A program made the translations under genes and the position numbers. Shown here in pieces: positions 8,610-14,801 of a stretch of 37,523 bases of DNA (positions are counted from its first letter, which is position 1; each line of letters begins with the position of its first letter). The notes beneath the pieces are model-generated. The model worked only from the letters and a program-made list of their open reading frames with translations. It was not told where the DNA came from and made no database searches. Source of the stretch: Stenomitos rutilans HA7619-LM2 (GTDB lineage Bacteria > Cyanobacteriota > Cyanobacteriia > Leptolyngbyales > Leptolyngbyaceae); the NCBI GenBank assembly GCA_019358945.1, contig JAHHIE010000066.1:1-37523 (forward strand). The letters run 5' to 3'.

Positions 8610-9437
8610 TCATCCTTTTCCACCTGTGAACGCCACGCCTTGAATGAAGTAGCGGTTAAAAAAGGCGTAGACAGCCAAGGCTGGTAGCGTAAAAATCATG
8701 GAGGCTGCCATGATGTAATTCCAGTAGCTAATGTATTGTCCTTTGAAGGCATTTAGACCCAACGTTAGAGTGAACATTTCGGGATCAGATAGAATAACTA
8801 AGGGCATCAGAAATTCATTCCAGGAACCCATAAAGACAAAAATGGTTTGAGCCGCTAATGCAGGTTTTGCGAGGGGTAGAACAATTTGAAAAAAGGTGCC
8901 AAAACGTCCCAAACCATCCAACGCGGCGGCTTCTTCTAGCTCTTTAGGGAAGTTAATAAAAAACTGCCGCATCATAAAAATAAACGTCGCATTGACGGCG
9001 GATGGCACGATCAAGCCTTGATAGGTATTAAGCCATCCCAATGATTTGAGAATCAAGAATTTAGGCAAGAGCGTAATTTGCCCCGGCACCATCAGCACTG
9101 CCAGAATCAGAAAGAACCAAAACTGATTGCCAGGAAAACGAATTCTCGCCAGGGCATAGCCTGCCATTGAATTAAATAAGAGATTCAATAGGGTGACAGA
9201 AATAGCCGCGATCGCGCTATTCATCAACCAGCGACCAAAGAGCGGCTCTTGTGTAAAAATTGTCTGATAATTTGCGAATGTAAACTGTTTGGGCACCAAA
9301 CTTAAGCCTCCTGCTGAAATTTCTGCCAGCGATTTAAAGGAAGCTGATAATGCCCAGGCAAACGGTAACAAGGTAATCAGCGTGTAGGCGATTAGAACTA
9401 TATAGAGAATCGCGGTTGACCAACGTATTGCTTTCAT
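8610..9437 (-). CDS. Carbohydrate ABC transporter permease (MalG/UgpE type)
   Basis: An inner-membrane subunit of a CUT1-family sugar importer. It has 275 residues with about six membrane helices. The conserved cytoplasmic EAA loop (KELEEAAALDG followed by PLAKPALAA), which docks the ATPase, is intact, and the N-terminus (ILYIVLIAYTLITLLPFAWALSASF) is typical of the MalG-like partner. It is the third gene of a minus-strand operon, 9 bp after the MalF-like permease. No ATPase gene is next to it, so a shared ATPase encoded elsewhere is expected. The cyanobacterial GgtBCD glucosylglycerol importer has the same gene order, but the substrate cannot be read from the sequence. Confidence 0.92.
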   Translation of the reverse strand: MKAIRWSTAILYIVLIAYTLITLLPFAWALSASFKSLAEISAGGLSLVPKQFTFANYQTIFTQEPLFGRWLMNSAIAAISVTLLNLLFNSMAGYALARIRFPGNQFWFFLILAVLMVPGQITLLPKFLILKSLGWLNTYQGLIVPSAVNATFIFMMRQFFINFPKELEEAAALDGLGRFGTFFQIVLPLAKPALAAQTIFVFMGSWNEFLMPLVILSDPEMFTLTLGLNAFKGQYISYWNYIMAASMIFTLPALAVYAFFNRYFIQGVAFTGGKG

Positions 9438-9446
9438 ACAAAATTC

Positions 9447-10355
9447 CTAATCTAAACGTTCTTCTTTAAACAACGTGCGCTGAATAATTGTTGAGGTCAT
9501 CAAGATAGCTGCCAGGATTAATGTAAGCGCTAAGGCATAGCCCATATCCAAGTTTTTGAAGGCGTATTGATAGATGAGCAGCACGATCGTCAGCGTAGAA
9601 TCGTTAGGGCCGCCAGAGCCAGCAGAGAAAATATACGACTGATCAAATAGCTGAAACGTCCCAATAATACCCATCACGACGACAAAAAATGTCACGGGCT
9701 GTAAGAAGGGTATGGTGACGTGCAATAACTTCTCCCAACGACTGGCTCCATCTAATGTAGCGGCTTCATAGAGCGTTTCTGGAATATCCTGTAGTGCTGC
9801 TAGATAAATCACCATAAATAAGGGTGCTGTTGACCAAATATTCATGATCATAATGCCCTTTAAGGCAACATTAGGATCGCCTAACCAGTTGTAGGTTGGT
9901 AGGTGTAAAAGACTCAGCAAACTGTTGAGCAAGCCGTTGGAATTATAAATCCACATGAAGATCAGCGTCAGCACTGCCGATGATGTCACAGTGGGCAGAA
10001 AAAAGGCAACCCGAAACCACGATCGCCCCTTAGTTTGACTATTCAAAATCAGGGCAAGGGCAAGGGCAAGGATTGTTTGAATGGGCACCACGATCGCTAC
10101 ATACGAAGCGGTGTTTTTGAGCGCAATCCAAACTCGATCGTCCTGAGCAATTCGCAAGAAGTTCTTTAAACCTGTAAACTGATAGCTCACATTGCCTAGA
10201 AGCTGTACTTTCTGGAAAGCAAGCGCAACGGCATAGGCAATTGGAAGAATCAAAAACACGCCAGCAATCAGAATGGTTGGAGCCATAAACAGATAGCCTG
10301 CAACGTTATCTTTTATGCTTCGCTTTTCCCACCTACGCTTACTCAATCTATTCAT
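9447..10355 (-). CDS. Carbohydrate ABC transporter permease (MalF/UgpA type)
   Basis: The second permease subunit of the same CUT1-type importer. It has 302 residues, an N-terminal basic stretch (MNRLSKRRWEKRS), then about six membrane helices starting at YLFMAPTILIAGVFLILPIAY. The EAA loop is present (LYEAATLDGASRW followed by IPFLQPVTF). It forms the heterodimeric pore with the MalG-like protein encoded 9 bp downstream. It is separated from the upstream binding-protein gene by 62 bp containing a strong hairpin, which probably lowers permease expression relative to the binding protein. Confidence 0.92.
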   Translation of the reverse strand: MNRLSKRRWEKRSIKDNVAGYLFMAPTILIAGVFLILPIAYAVALAFQKVQLLGNVSYQFTGLKNFLRIAQDDRVWIALKNTASYVAIVVPIQTILALALALILNSQTKGRSWFRVAFFLPTVTSSAVLTLIFMWIYNSNGLLNSLLSLLHLPTYNWLGDPNVALKGIMIMNIWSTAPLFMVIYLAALQDIPETLYEAATLDGASRWEKLLHVTIPFLQPVTFFVVVMGIIGTFQLFDQSYIFSAGSGGPNDSTLTIVLLIYQYAFKNLDMGYALALTLILAAILMTSTIIQRTLFKEERLD

Positions 10356-10375
10356 AAGTTTCTACCCTGGTATTT

Positions 10376-10408
10376 AGACCTCTGAGGTCTTAAAGACCTC
10401 AGAGGTCT
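10376..10408. repeat. Hairpin between binding-protein and permease genes, AGACCTCNGAGGTCT
   Basis: Perfect 15-bp arms (10376-10390 and 10394-10408) flank a 3-nt spacer. Each arm, AGACCTCTGAGGTCT or AGACCTCAGAGGTCT, is itself a palindrome, so either one long hairpin or two short ones can form. Its position after the binding-protein gene is where ABC operons often carry mRNA-stabilising or partly terminating hairpins. The motif resembles the AAACCTCNGAGGTTT family at 1225-1291 and 22107-22175. Confidence 0.85.
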
Positions 10409-10417
10409 GTTTCTTTT

Positions 10418-11710
10418 CTAATTAGATAAATAGATTTCTCGATTAGCGGTATCTTGTGCTTTTTGCATTGCCTGGGGTAATGACTGTTCTCCCAACAAAG
10501 CACTAATAAACTGATTGTTGAAGTTCATACGAATGATGGGTAAGTTCTGATTCGCTTGCCAGATCGTTGCATACCTAGCACCTCTGGCAAAGGGAGCATA
10601 TAAGGGGTTTTGTTCGTATCCCGATGCCGCTAAAACCGATCGACGAGTTGGTAAAGCCAAACCTTGTTTTGCCCATGCTTTCATGCCTTCGCTGCCAGTT
10701 AAGTAAGCAATCAATTTCCATGCAGCCTCTTTATGCTTTGCTTTGCGATTCATCACGTAGGCAACAGTGAACGCCATTGTTCCAGCTTTGCCATTGATTG
10801 TAGGAACTTCTGCTGTCGCAAAAGCAAGCGTTGGAAAGGTTTCTTTAAAGTAAGGAATGGCCCACGGGCCTTCAAGCGTCATGGAAACTTTTCCTTGACC
10901 CAACATTTCGCTACCTGAGGTTGCACCGACATCTGTTGGTTGAGCAGCGGTGCGATCGCGACGATATTGATCAATGACTAACTGCAAGCCTTTCAAGCTT
11001 TGAGGTTCAGCAAAAGCCGCATAACCATTCGGCTCGATCAGCTTCCCGCCAAAGGCTTTTAACACAAAAACTTGTCGTGCTAATTCGGGTGCAAGCCCAA
11101 AACCAACTTGATCCATTTTTCCATCATGATTCTGGTCGATCGTCAGCTTTTTAGACACTGCAATAAGCTCATCCCATGTTTTGGGTGGTTGCGCGATACC
11201 AGCCGCCGCAAATGCTTTTTTGTTATACATTAAGGCAAGCGTTGAGAAATCTTTGGGCAGGCCGTACAGCTTGCCGTTGCGCTTAAACGCATTGAGCATT
11301 GAAGGTTCAAAATCAGCCAGATTGAATGCAGGTGTAATGTAAGCATCCAGTGGTTCCAGTACGTTATATTGCATTAATAACGGGGCTTCAAGCGCATCCA
11401 AATAAAATACATCCGGAGCAACATCACCAATGAGGCGCGTTTTAATCACATCCATGTATTCGCTATTGATGACTTCATACTTAACGCGAATACCAGGATT
11501 TTTTGCCTCAAATTCTTGAATCACTTGATGCAAAAGCTTCGTTTCATTAGGATTACTTTGCCAACCGCTTAACGTGATAGTAACGGTTGAATCTTTTGGC
11601 TTGAGTGTATTTTGGCTATGCAAAAAAAGCGCTTGTTTACGACAGCTCGTTAACACGATCGCTCCAAGCAGCAAACAACTCCAGCCAAACTTTCGCAAAC
11701 TAACTTTCAT
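10418..11710 (-). CDS. Sugar ABC transporter substrate-binding lipoprotein (solute-binding family 1)
   Basis: Captures a sugar or oligosaccharide outside the inner membrane and delivers it to the two permeases downstream. The protein has 430 residues, a lipoprotein signal peptide with lipobox LTSC (Cys at residue 23 from this start), and the family-1 pattern: TVTITLSGWQSNPNETKLL, FEAKNPGIRVKYEV, DVFYLDALEAPLLMQ, LYGLPKDFSTLALMYNKKAF, PKTWDELIAVSKKL and a C-terminal YLTGSEGMKAWAKQGLALPT. ATG 11710 is directly preceded by a GTG in frame (11713); the ATG is preferred. It is the first gene of the importer operon and is divergent from the CNB-AAA-polyferredoxin gene, sharing a 232-bp gap. Confidence 0.92.
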   Translation of the reverse strand: MKVSLRKFGWSCLLLGAIVLTSCRKQALFLHSQNTLKPKDSTVTITLSGWQSNPNETKLLHQVIQEFEAKNPGIRVKYEVINSEYMDVIKTRLIGDVAPDVFYLDALEAPLLMQYNVLEPLDAYITPAFNLADFEPSMLNAFKRNGKLYGLPKDFSTLALMYNKKAFAAAGIAQPPKTWDELIAVSKKLTIDQNHDGKMDQVGFGLAPELARQVFVLKAFGGKLIEPNGYAAFAEPQSLKGLQLVIDQYRRDRTAAQPTDVGATSGSEMLGQGKVSMTLEGPWAIPYFKETFPTLAFATAEVPTINGKAGTMAFTVAYVMNRKAKHKEAAWKLIAYLTGSEGMKAWAKQGLALPTRRSVLAASGYEQNPLYAPFARGARYATIWQANQNLPIIRMNFNNQFISALLGEQSLPQAMQKAQDTANREIYLSN

Positions 11711-11942
11711 CACGCTTATCGCCGCATATTCAAGTCACTTTCTTTTTAATCTACAGCGCTATCTTCTTGTTACGCGAGCCAAAAAGATCTCTCCTACGAT
11801 AGAGACAAGCTGAATGTCGAGAATGCCACCGATTCATGCGTCGAAATATTGAGGACTGTAGGCTGCGGCGGCAACTCAGGTACGATTGCAATGAGAAAAC
11901 GTCGGTAAAAAGCAGGTGCCAAGCTTGGATGAGGTAAGCGGG

Positions 11943-14477
11943 ATGGAACAGGCAGAAAAAGTGGCATGGCTACGCGAAAATACAAGCTTAGCTTCCTTAT
12001 CAGAGGGCGCATTAGAGGCAATTGCCTTCGCAATTCAGGAAGACTCGGTGCAGGAAAATCGACGACTCGTTTTGGAAGATACGCCGCCCGACGCGCTGTA
12101 CATTCTCAAGTCGGGGCGGTTAGAAAGCTACCGTACTAGCAAAACGGGACTGGCGAATGCAGTCAGTTTGCTGCCGGGAACGGTGCTGCACCTGAAGGAG
12201 CTAGCGTTAGACCAACCCGTAGAACAGACGGTGATTACGCTCAACGATTGCGTGGTGTGGAGCATTCCCAAAGCCGACTTTTTGGCGATCGTGCAGCAGC
12301 ATCCCGAAATTACCCAAACGCTCTCGCGTCAACTCGCCACCGAACTCGATCAGGTGTCTGCCCAACTGGCCTACGAGCGAGAACGCCAAACAGCTCTGCG
12401 TCCTTATCTGTTGCCTAAAGTCCGGCGAGGCATCGTGGGTTCCAGTCGTTATGCTACCCGATTACGGCAGGAGATTAAGAAGGCAGCGGGTGATCGGCGA
12501 TCGGTGCTGGTGTTTGGTGAACCGGGATTAGGGAAAGACAATGCGACAGCGCTGATTCACTTTGGGTCGCGCGATCGGCACGAGCCGATGATCAAAGTCA
12601 ACTGCGACACCTTGCAAGCCAGTGGGTCTGAACTTTTTGGGCGGGTGGGTGGCAAACCGGGACTCATCGAGTGGTTGGGCGAAGGCACCCTGCTGCTGAA
12701 CAACGTGCAGGAACTGCCAGCAGAGCTACAAAGCAAGGTCGTGCGGCTGCTAGAAACAGGCGAATATGACCCGGTAGGACGCGATGGTGAGTTGCCCCCA
12801 ACACCGCGACAGTGCAACGCCCGCATTATGATGACCTCCGAAAAAGTGCTTCCACATCTGGAGCGTAAAGGGCTGGTTGGGCAGATTATTCGCGTCCCCC
12901 CTTTACGAGTCCGAAAAGCCGACATTCAAGCGCAGGTGGAATACTACCTCAGCTTATTGTGTCGGGCGCGGGGACTGCCGAAGCCCGGTGTGGCTCCAGA
13001 AGCGCTGCGGCGGCTGCAAGGCTACGACTTTCCTGGGAATCTCACGGAGTTGGAAAGCCTGGTCGAGCGGGCACTGCTGCAATCCGATGGGGCGACCGAA
13101 CTGACCGAAGAGGTCTTTTGGGCAGTCAGCGGAAAAACCAGACGCTTTCGCGTGAATCTTCTCAACGCATCACCGAAGTTTCGCCAGTTCTTGCGGAGTC
13201 CCTGGTATCCCGATCGCATTAACTATGGCTTCACGCTGGGCTTTTTTGCTGTCGTGGTTGCCGTGCTGATGCTAGGGCCGCAAAGCCGCGATCGCAACAT
13301 CGCGCTCAATTTTTTCTGGGCGTGGTGGTGGATGATCATTCTGGCAGCCTTCCCCTTTGTGGGACGGCTCTGGTGTTCGGTCTGCCCCTTTATGATCTAC
13401 GGCGAACTCGCGCAGAAGTTCTCCCTCTGGCTCTATCCGCGTCAACTGCTGCCCTGGCCACGTCAGCAAGCCGAGAAATGGGGCGGTTGGTTCCTGTTTG
13501 GGATGTTCACCCTCATTCTGCTGTGGGAAGAGCTTTGGGACTTAGAAAACACCGCGTACCTATCCGGTTGCCTGCTGCTGCTGATTACGGCGGGAGCCGT
13601 CATTTTCTCGCTGCTGTTTGAGCGACGGTTTTGGTGTCGGTATCTGTGTCCGATCGGCGGCATGAATGGACTTTTTGCCAAGCTGTCGATGGTGGAACTC
13701 CGCGCCCAGCAGGGTATTTGTTCTGCCACCTGCACCACTTACCAGTGCTACAAAGGTGGCCCTGAAAAAGGTGAAGGTCAAGAAACAGGCGGCTGTCCCC
13801 TCTACTCCCATCCCGCGCAGCTTGAAGACAATCGAGATTGCGTGCTGTGCATGACCTGCCTCAAAGCCTGTCCTCACCGTTCTGTCGAGCTAAACCTGCG
13901 ACCACCGGGTATCGAACTGTGGACAACGCACCAGCCGACCTATGCTGAGGTCTGCCTGCTGTTTCTGTTGTTTGGAGCGGTCTTTCTGCATCGCTTACCC
14001 GAAATCGAAGCGCAGTTTGGCTGGCATCTCCATCTGGATCACTTTGGCATTCACGCAGGCGTTTCGCTGTTGGCGCTACTGCTACCCAGCAGTAGCGCCC
14101 TCCTCGCCTACGCCGTGATCCAACTCTTGCAACACAACTGCAAGCCACGCCCCTTTCTGGAACTGGCGTATGGCTATTTGCCCCTCGTTCTGGGCACAAG
14201 TCTGGCACACTACTTCCGTCTGGGCTTGACAGAAGCCGGACAAATTGTGCCCGTCACCTTCGCCACCTTTGGCTTTGGGACGGCAAACCTACCGATCGCC
14301 ATTGCAGACCCCGCTGTAATTGCCTTTTTGCAAAGCGTTACGCTGATTTTCTCGTTCTGGCTCAGCGTCGTACTCACCCAAAAAATTGCCCGTCAGTCGT
14401 TGCTCAGTCTTTTGCCGCAACATCTGGCAATGCTGGCGATTGGTTCCCTCATGTGGAAGGTGATTGTCGGTTGGTAA
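11943..14477 (+). CDS. Fusion of cyclic-nucleotide-binding domain, degenerate sigma54-type AAA+ domain and membrane polyferredoxin
   Basis: The 844-residue protein has three modules. Residues ~10-145 resemble a Crp/cNMP-binding domain (LYILKSGRLESYR, VVWSIPKADFLAIVQQHPEI). Residues ~165-400 are an NtrC-like AAA+ domain: Walker A GEPGLGKD (192-199) and IRVPPLRVRKADI are kept, but the sigma54-contacting GAFTGA loop is absent and the Walker B acidic pair is NN (TLLLNNV, N253/N254). Residues ~424-844 contain several membrane helices and NapH/NosR-like Fe-S motifs: WCSVCP, WCRYLCP, CSATCTTYQC and CVLCMTCLKACP. A redox- or nucleotide-controlled electron-transfer or sensory role is inference; cyanobacteria lack sigma54, so classical activator function is unlikely. 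ATG 11943 has GAGG 8 nt upstream and is preferred over GTG 11916. Confidence 0.88.
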   Translation: MEQAEKVAWLRENTSLASLSEGALEAIAFAIQEDSVQENRRLVLEDTPPDALYILKSGRLESYRTSKTGLANAVSLLPGTVLHLKELALDQPVEQTVITLNDCVVWSIPKADFLAIVQQHPEITQTLSRQLATELDQVSAQLAYERERQTALRPYLLPKVRRGIVGSSRYATRLRQEIKKAAGDRRSVLVFGEPGLGKDNATALIHFGSRDRHEPMIKVNCDTLQASGSELFGRVGGKPGLIEWLGEGTLLLNNVQELPAELQSKVVRLLETGEYDPVGRDGELPPTPRQCNARIMMTSEKVLPHLERKGLVGQIIRVPPLRVRKADIQAQVEYYLSLLCRARGLPKPGVAPEALRRLQGYDFPGNLTELESLVERALLQSDGATELTEEVFWAVSGKTRRFRVNLLNASPKFRQFLRSPWYPDRINYGFTLGFFAVVVAVLMLGPQSRDRNIALNFFWAWWWMIILAAFPFVGRLWCSVCPFMIYGELAQKFSLWLYPRQLLPWPRQQAEKWGGWFLFGMFTLILLWEELWDLENTAYLSGCLLLLITAGAVIFSLLFERRFWCRYLCPIGGMNGLFAKLSMVELRAQQGICSATCTTYQCYKGGPEKGEGQETGGCPLYSHPAQLEDNRDCVLCMTCLKACPHRSVELNLRPPGIELWTTHQPTYAEVCLLFLLFGAVFLHRLPEIEAQFGWHLHLDHFGIHAGVSLLALLLPSSSALLAYAVIQLLQHNCKPRPFLELAYGYLPLVLGTSLAHYFRLGLTEAGQIVPVTFATFGFGTANLPIAIADPAVIAFLQSVTLIFSFWLSVVLTQKIARQSLLSLLPQHLAMLAIGSLMWKVIVGW

Positions 14478-14486
14478 GACTTTGTC

Positions 14487-14801
14487 GAGTCTTGAACACT
14501 TATCAGAGAGTCTTGGATACTCGTCGGTGAGTCCTGGATACTCACTGGAGACTCTTTCATACTCGTTAGCGAGTCTTGGATACTCGTCGGTGAGTCCTGG
14601 ATACTCATTGGAGACTCTTTCATACTTGTCAGCGAGTCTTAAATACTCGTCGGTGAGTCCTGGATACTCATTGGAGACTCTTTCATACTTGTCAGCGAGT
14701 CTTAAATACTCGTCGGTGAGTCCTGGATACTCATTGGAGACTCTTTCATACTCATTGGAGAGTCTTGCATACTCATCGGAGAGTCTCGGATACTCAGTGG
14801 G
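14487..14801. repeat. Fifteen 21-bp tandem repeats with 63-bp higher-order period
   Basis: Units such as GAGTCTTGGATACTCGTCGG(T), GAGTCCTGGATACTCATTGG(A) and GACTCTTTCATACTTGTCAG(C) alternate in triplets, beginning 10 bp after the stop of the preceding gene. Because the unit is a multiple of three, several frames on both strands stay open. Minus-strand frames read as heptads like EYPGLTDEYLRLADKYERVS or SIQDSPTSIQDSLTSMKES; a plus-strand frame reads SVSPGYSLETLSY. None has a convincing ribosome-binding site or recognisable flanking domain. The longest minus frame (14906 to 14289) also runs antisense through the end of the upstream gene. I treat it as a repeat, with a small repeat protein as the alternative. 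Confidence 0.85.

Follow-up and report, generated by a model that had tools for sequence, protein, structure and literature searches.

A single gene of the window (the whole stretch of 37,523 nucleotides from Stenomitos rutilans HA7619-LM2 that was analysed) encodes a protein in which a domain with the cyclic nucleotide-binding (CNB) fold, an AAA+ domain of the sigma54-activator type and a membrane polyferredoxin are joined in one chain of 844 residues. The AAA+ domain is without what a sigma54 activator needs, yet it is kept under purifying selection, representing a clear case of an activator domain retained after the apparent loss of its chemistry, in a genome where the DNA-binding domain of the sigma factor that it would serve was not found. 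The same architecture, with a conserved set of 12 cysteines, defines a family of Fe-S membrane proteins carried by about two thirds of the sampled cyanobacterial genomes, whose two annotated relatives bear only generic names. Further, through one clade the family is linked with sulfide handling and alternative parts of the photosystem, a link of relevance to the switching between oxygenic and sulfide-driven photosynthesis. We propose, with belief and doubt about evenly balanced, that the protein is a membrane-anchored Fe-S relay facing the cytoplasm, in which the retired activator domain would serve as a regulatory platform.

Gene and domain organization

The frame lies on the plus strand at 11943-14477, from an ATG at 11943 (from which residues are counted; an alternative GTG start is found at 11916) to a stop at 14477, and the genome has a single match to its product. 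Pfam assigned cNMP_binding to residues 35-120 (12045..12302; PF00027, 7.7e-14), Sigma54_activat to residues 164-303 (PF00158, 6.3e-20), AAA_lid_14 to residues 322-385, and Fer4_5 to two stretches of the protein; together with the NCBIfam matches described below, these results bear out the three-part fusion that an earlier note had read from the letters of the sequence. No RNA family reached gathering scores in the window, and a promoter and terminator scan of 11600-12000 found none. Just past the stop of the gene, a tandem array (14487-14800) comprises 14.8 copies of a 21-bp unit, with a higher-order unit of 63 bp at 91% matches.

The unusual architecture could speak for a chimera joined from two or three genes by misassembly or misannotation, and an assembly chimera had been named beforehand as grounds for refutation. 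We give this reading next to no credence and rejected it, since the identical full-length architecture recurs across many other assemblies, 261 of the 388 sampled genomes of the class carrying the family, and in two plasmid records.

The AAA+ domain lost the activator motifs and kept the fold

The AAA+ domain with its lid (residues 160-396; 12420..13130) was delimited by Pfam, alignment to PspF, and an AlphaFold2 model with its match to FleQ (6jdi). In alignments to PspF and NifA, the GAFTGA segment falls in a deletion of the window protein, at the place of ELFGRVGGKPG (12630..12662). The PspF segment TFRADLLDR, which we take to be the arginine-finger region, likewise falls in a deletion in the alignment to PspF (about residues 309-312; 12867..12878), and the LDE of PspF reads LNN, with NN replacing the Walker B DE pair at residues 253-254 (12699..12704). 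The motifs were counted in 151 members, obtained from 163 loci by removing 7 duplicates and 6 short frames and adding the window (75 of clade A, to which the window protein belongs, 67 of clade B and 9 of clade C); the set includes the open part (603 aa) of L164, a locus broken by stops in its match, and the partial L175 (571 aa). Neither GAFTGA nor, by pattern, the arginine-finger motif was present in any of the 151, the segments being absent by truncation in two clade B rows. None of the 75 clade A members has the Walker B DE; the pair is NN in 71, with SN, TN, ND and NK making up the remainder, and the Walker B Asp is present in 0 of the 75. Of the 9 clade C members, 8 retain the Asp and none the Glu, and clade B often displays DN, with no DE among the forms listed (61 of 67 members). 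Of the observations made in the earlier note, the missing GAFTGA extends to all three clades and the NN pair to most of clade A.

Its further statement that Walker A is kept stands for the window, which reads GEPGLGKD (12516..12539), and for the Lys (K198), invariant in a 50-row alignment (A4) made of the window and 49 of 51 stop-free matches; five of the 56 matches had been dropped for stops (L154, L164, L165, L173 and L191), and L115 and L138 by choice. Conversely, it does not extend to the preceding Gly (G197), which is lost in 54 of the 75 clade A members, their P-loop being GEPGLEKD in 45, GEPGLGKD in 20 (window included), GEPGLDKD in 4, GEQGLEKD in 2, and four other forms once each, GEPSSGKD among them. 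The clade B P-loop is mostly intact, all 12 forms listed (45 of 67 members) ending in GKT.

The fold remains, as the model of residues 160-396 matches FleQ (6jdi) with a Z score of 24.9 over 229 residues at an rmsd of 2.4, and FleQ, FlrC, NtrX, PspF and other activators at Z 18 to 25 (18.1 to 23.6 for PspF entries). Between the window and L182 (Stenomitos frigidus), dN/dS is 0.057 for the CNB part, 0.039 for the AAA+ part, 0.031 for the Fe-S part and 0.051 for the C-terminal part, at dS values of 1.3-2.2 that are near saturation; over five relatives, identity is 84-94% in the Fe-S part versus 71-85% in the AAA+ part. Given these low ratios, indicative of purifying selection, together with its conservation, the AAA+ part is maintained, although its motifs suggest that it is catalytically dead.

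Regarding the partner of such activators, the RpoN DNA-binding domain PF04552, the one RpoN domain searched, had 0 matches in the genome of the window (99.9% complete; control matched 4 of 14), in agreement with the earlier expectation that rpoN would be missing. In the class sample, matches at 1e-3 occurred in 5 of 388 genomes, 2 of them above the cut-off, where the open frames measure 207 and 94 aa, and in the phylum sample in 11 of 386 genomes, 2 above the cut-off. The sole strong match (2.3e-16) is a frame of 202 residues, far below the length of a full RpoN. This lone frame with a sigma54 DNA-binding-type domain (L194:1459-2067; match G125:C1:411956-412339) is found alongside a family member in the same cyanobacterial genome.

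The reading that a membrane module has been fused to a still active sigma54-dependent activator, as the AAA+ sequence and fold might suggest, is contradicted by these results and was rejected: GAFTGA and the finger are missing throughout the 151 members and the Walker B DE throughout clade A, and the genome is without the RpoN DNA-binding domain, leaving this reading a vanishingly small probability. The window protein has the AAA+ fold and lid in common with sigma54-dependent activators (bEBPs such as PspF, NifA, FlrC and NtrX), and differs from them in these same features and in the absence of any DNA-binding or HTH family, including the Fis-type C-terminal one, from its 14 Pfam matches at E up to 1. 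A similar reuse of the activator fold for another purpose is offered by FleQ and VpsR (structure matches) and TyrR (model match), activator-type AAA+ proteins that presumably act without sigma54. Proteins of this type are soluble and bind DNA; in contrast, the window protein is membrane-bound and carries an Fe-S module. The repurposing of the AAA+ part as a regulatory or scaffold module that couples a ligand or redox signal to membrane electron transfer, as the earlier note proposed, is partly supported by the lost motifs, the kept domain and the missing RpoN DNA-binding domain, and the tie to membrane electron transfer fits the invariant cysteines described below. A cyclic nucleotide (cNMP) as the ligand found no support.

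The CNB-type domain

The label of a cNMP-binding-like domain is right as a description of the fold: besides the PF00027 match, entries for CNB proteins were matched, and model residues 1-139 match the GORK channel and a GEF regulatory domain at Z of about 17, structures that we assume to hold CNB domains. The phosphate-binding cassette of cNMP-binding regulators of the CRP/PKA type has a conserved Arg. In the window protein, which shares their fold, and across its family this residue is not conserved: at none of positions 77-104 does it rank among the two most frequent residues of 70 clade A members, and among 62 clade B members it comes second, as a minority residue, at positions 92 (9 members) and 94 (7 members). 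Binding of cAMP or another cNMP is therefore doubtful. Moreover, the CNB part is less than half present in 19 of the 151 members (5 of clade A, 5 of clade B and 9 of clade C), two of the clade B rows being truncated further. The term 'cyclic nucleotide' has 0 occurrences in the main texts of four papers (PMC12466478, PMC5061849, PMC11304991 and PMC8002359).

The membrane Fe-S module

Residues 400-844 (13140..14474) form the membrane module, delimited by the model, Pfam and NCBIfam, with four long helices, an Fe-S domain and five further long helices; taking their membrane status from the model, about nine transmembrane helices are predicted. The earlier description of an Fe-S membrane module with at least four Cys motifs is confirmed by alignment, which places a CxxC motif after the second helix (C478 and C481, CP following; 13374..13385), a CxxxC motif after the fourth (C565 and C569, CP following; 13635..13649), and two ferredoxin-type sets at 13719..13871 (C593, C597, C602 and C618; C633, C636, C639 and C643). 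These 12 cysteines are conserved in all 75 clade A members, all 9 of clade C, and 65 to 67 of the 67 of clade B. From the helix order, the Cys motifs would face the side of the soluble front end. Heme ligation by C-terminal histidines was considered and rejected, H683 being His in 68/75, 63/67 and 6/9 members of clades A, B and C, and H756 in 66/75 and 49/67 members of clades A and B and replaced by R, S or D in 8/9 of clade C.

Paired CxxCP/CxxxCP motifs with two ferredoxin-type Cys sets define the NapH/MauN polyferredoxins, whose transmembrane helices with these motifs are also those of the window protein. It differs from them in scores below the cut-offs, in about five further C-terminal helices, and in the fused CNB and AAA+ domains: the NapH/MauN-like model of NCBIfam (TIGR02163) matches residues 472-650 at 52.1 bits versus a cut-off of 213.05, and a second NapH-type model (PRK09477) scores 45.5 bits versus 234. 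NosR, which we take to be a similar membrane polyferredoxin, has an N-terminal FMN-binding domain, and CcoG a C-terminal FixG-type domain; neither family is in the Pfam list of the window protein at E up to 1. The full-length AlphaFold2 model has a mean pLDDT of 82.1, and the membrane module modelled alone a pLDDT of 79.2 and a pTM of 0.80, with an Fe-S loop below pLDDT 50. Foldseek found no match for the module in the PDB at E 0.001 (best E 0.57), and the VIA fold search gave Z of at most 6.8, which does not prove a new fold.

Distribution and phylogeny of the family

A profile search at 1e-60 placed the family in 261 of 388 class genomes; for good assemblies alone, the figure was 225 of 334. 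At 1e-10, a protein search matched 121 of 386 phylum genomes; 104 remain once 17 genomes outside the class are set aside, where AAA+ or polyferredoxin proteins gave partial matches. A scan of named genomes gave 574 candidate stretches, of which 506 encode relatives; the best 80 of the 506 bear cyanobacterial titles, and the other 426 may include non-cyanobacterial relatives. Only two of 72,556 plasmid records, both from cyanobacteria, contain 80% or more of the protein at a single place. A stand-alone 4Fe-4S protein of the Deinococcus ficus plasmid pDFI1 (WP_027463891.1) has 34.5% identity to residues 405-688, and differs in its length of 452 aa and in having only Fer4_5 at 1e-5, with no CNB or AAA+ family.

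Three groups were resolved in a phylogeny built from 73 of the 151 members, with SH-aLRT values of 93 for clade A, 100 for clade B and 100 for clade C, the grouping of C with B carrying a long-branch warning. Clade C comes from family code f19, with genomes of 2.3-3.7 Mb, and probably corresponds to picocyanobacteria. Clade B paralogues (Pseudanabaena galeata WP_281009908.1 and Aulosira laxa BAZ78296.1) share the three-part architecture at 37-43% overall identity; they depart from the window protein in the GKT and DN forms given above and in a cysK gene directly downstream. Two annotated relatives bear generic names only, and in the literature searched we found no description of a CNB-AAA+-polyferredoxin fusion. 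In one locus, L050 (G342:C8:7155-9154), the AAA+ and membrane parts lie in two overlapping frames, either a split gene or a frameshift.

Gene context of the window and clade A

Upstream of the gene, a divergent ABC importer of the sugar type (a substrate-binding protein, SBP, and two permeases) occupies 8610..11713 on the minus strand, as determined by Pfam and locus comparison. All three importer genes, those of the SBP and the two permeases, lie beside the gene in 4 of 5 genomes of the same genus, but in none of 5 further genomes sampled from the same family. L182 is the only one of the 163 loci with the full set; its genome is apparently that of L205, which is among the four same-genus cases. 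At L135, a related SBP (61%) is found close to the clade B gene. Hence, the importer that had been suggested as a possible target is indeed a divergent neighbour, at the genus level only; it was rejected as an established target, and the case for it as a partner is weak.

Clade A has no widely shared neighbour, no Pfam family occurring in more than 6 of 114 adjacent proteins: glycosyltransferase families account for 6, and a photosystem II (PSII) protein, GAPDH, Uma2 and a starch-synthase-type domain for 4 each, with the GAPDH and PSII neighbours each confined to one family code. At L071-L075, which span three family codes, a group 4 type glycosyltransferase lies one or two genes upstream of the clade A gene on the same strand. 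At L048, L063, L102 and L104 (family code f12), the next downstream gene is psbB-like.

Gene context of clade B and proposed function

Conversely, clade B displays a recurrent context. Within 600 bp downstream and on the same strand, cysK is found at 36 of the 63 unique clade B loci with 700 bp of downstream sequence, and at 0 of 84 loci of clades A and C. The wider context was counted within 9 kb at loci with 5 kb on both sides (35 of clade B; 73 of A and C), using query genes taken from clade B loci, so that the counts are descriptive, with loci uncorrected for kinship and absences limited by the flank. In clade B versus A and C, cysK was found at 20 and 1 loci, psbA at 9 and 1, rhodanese-like genes at 9 and 0, petC at 8 and 0, DUF3365 at 8 and 0, ArsR at 7 and 2, NifX at 7 and 0, SQR-like at 6 and 0, MBL-fold (persulfide-dioxygenase-like) at 5 and 0, cydA at 4 and 0, and Hdr-like at 3 and 0. 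The SQR-like and MBL-fold proteins fall below the NCBIfam cut-offs, and their names are therefore tentative. One of the ten sulfur-type genes is shown by 1 of the 73 A and C loci.

The relay that we propose would be of the NapH/NosR style, with about nine transmembrane helices, two ferredoxin-type cluster sites and the CxxCP/CxxxCP pair at the membrane face. The CNB fold and the apparently dead AAA+ domain, which make up the soluble front end, may act as a platform for binding a ligand or partner, gating the relay or sensing its redox state. Electrons would most likely pass from the quinone pool (or ferredoxin) to a cytosolic partner, in clade B probably one tied to sulfide or polysulfide handling. 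In favour of the relay are the domain content, the lost activator and ATPase motifs in an intact AAA+ fold, the kept cysteines, the purifying selection, the missing RpoN DNA-binding domain, the wide distribution and the gene context of clade B. Against this proposal, the clusters, the quinone site and the electron partner are all putative, and the low NapH score, the low-confidence Fe-S loop, the missing PDB match and the missing shared neighbour of clade A have to be weighed; against the sulfide link, 11 of the 35 clade B loci show none of the ten sulfur-type genes, and the clade B context does not prove the same role for clade A.

An assembly or reductant factor of the CcoG kind, which would supply electrons for metalloprotein maturation (e.g., Rieske, cytochrome or copper sites) and in which the AAA+ remnant would recruit the client, was weighed as well. 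A membrane polyferredoxin with a cytosolic platform fits such a role, as do petC and cydA near clade B; however, the C-terminal domain of CcoG is missing, and the clade A neighbours hold no recurring metalloprotein family, the PSII protein apart, making this reading distinctly improbable.

A less remote alternative, which we still consider unlikely, is a redox or sulfur-species sensor, whose clusters would sense quinone redox state, O2 or sulfide and whose front end would signal by binding a transcription factor, kinase or enzyme, with no net electron delivery. The regulatory descent of the front end and the presence of FleQ and VpsR, whose roles we take to be sigma54-independent, among the fold matches are in its favour. 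Additionally, according to excerpts of one study, pdo, rhod, tauE, cysK2, psbA and petC go up and sqr goes down in response to polysulfide in Synechococcus PCC 7002 (PMC12466478), and psbA, petC2 and arsR near sqr appear in excerpts of two others (PMC5061849, PMC11304991). The induced genes of the PCC 7002 excerpt are of the same kinds as the clade B neighbours, the direction of sqr excepted (PMC12466478); the induction agrees with the relay as well as with a sensor, and the lowered sqr weighs against the relay. Nevertheless, the protein has no DNA-binding family in its Pfam list, about nine transmembrane helices and 12 conserved cysteines seem to us beyond the needs of a sensor, the CNB part is largely missing from the 19 members mentioned above, and each of the two annotated clade B loci already has its own regulator, ArsR in L111 and a MerR-type one in L112. 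Returning to the relay, we tentatively suggest, with somewhat less than even confidence, a pan-cyanobacterial redox relay whose retired activator domain would be a cytosolic switch platform, and whose clade B sister would tune photosynthetic electron flow to sulfide or polysulfide and would travel, in part on plasmids, within islands that also contain cysK and genes for alternative D1 and Rieske proteins.

Two clade B loci, L111 and L112, are on plasmids and display a sulfide-type island in which the clade B gene is accompanied by cysK, psbA, petC and rhodanese-like genes; one of these plasmids, that of Aulosira laxa, was typed as conjugative (MOBF, MPF_T). At two other loci, L042:11862-19000 and L109:47-6399, Hdr-like (HdrA/B/C) and SQR-like genes adjoin the clade B gene.
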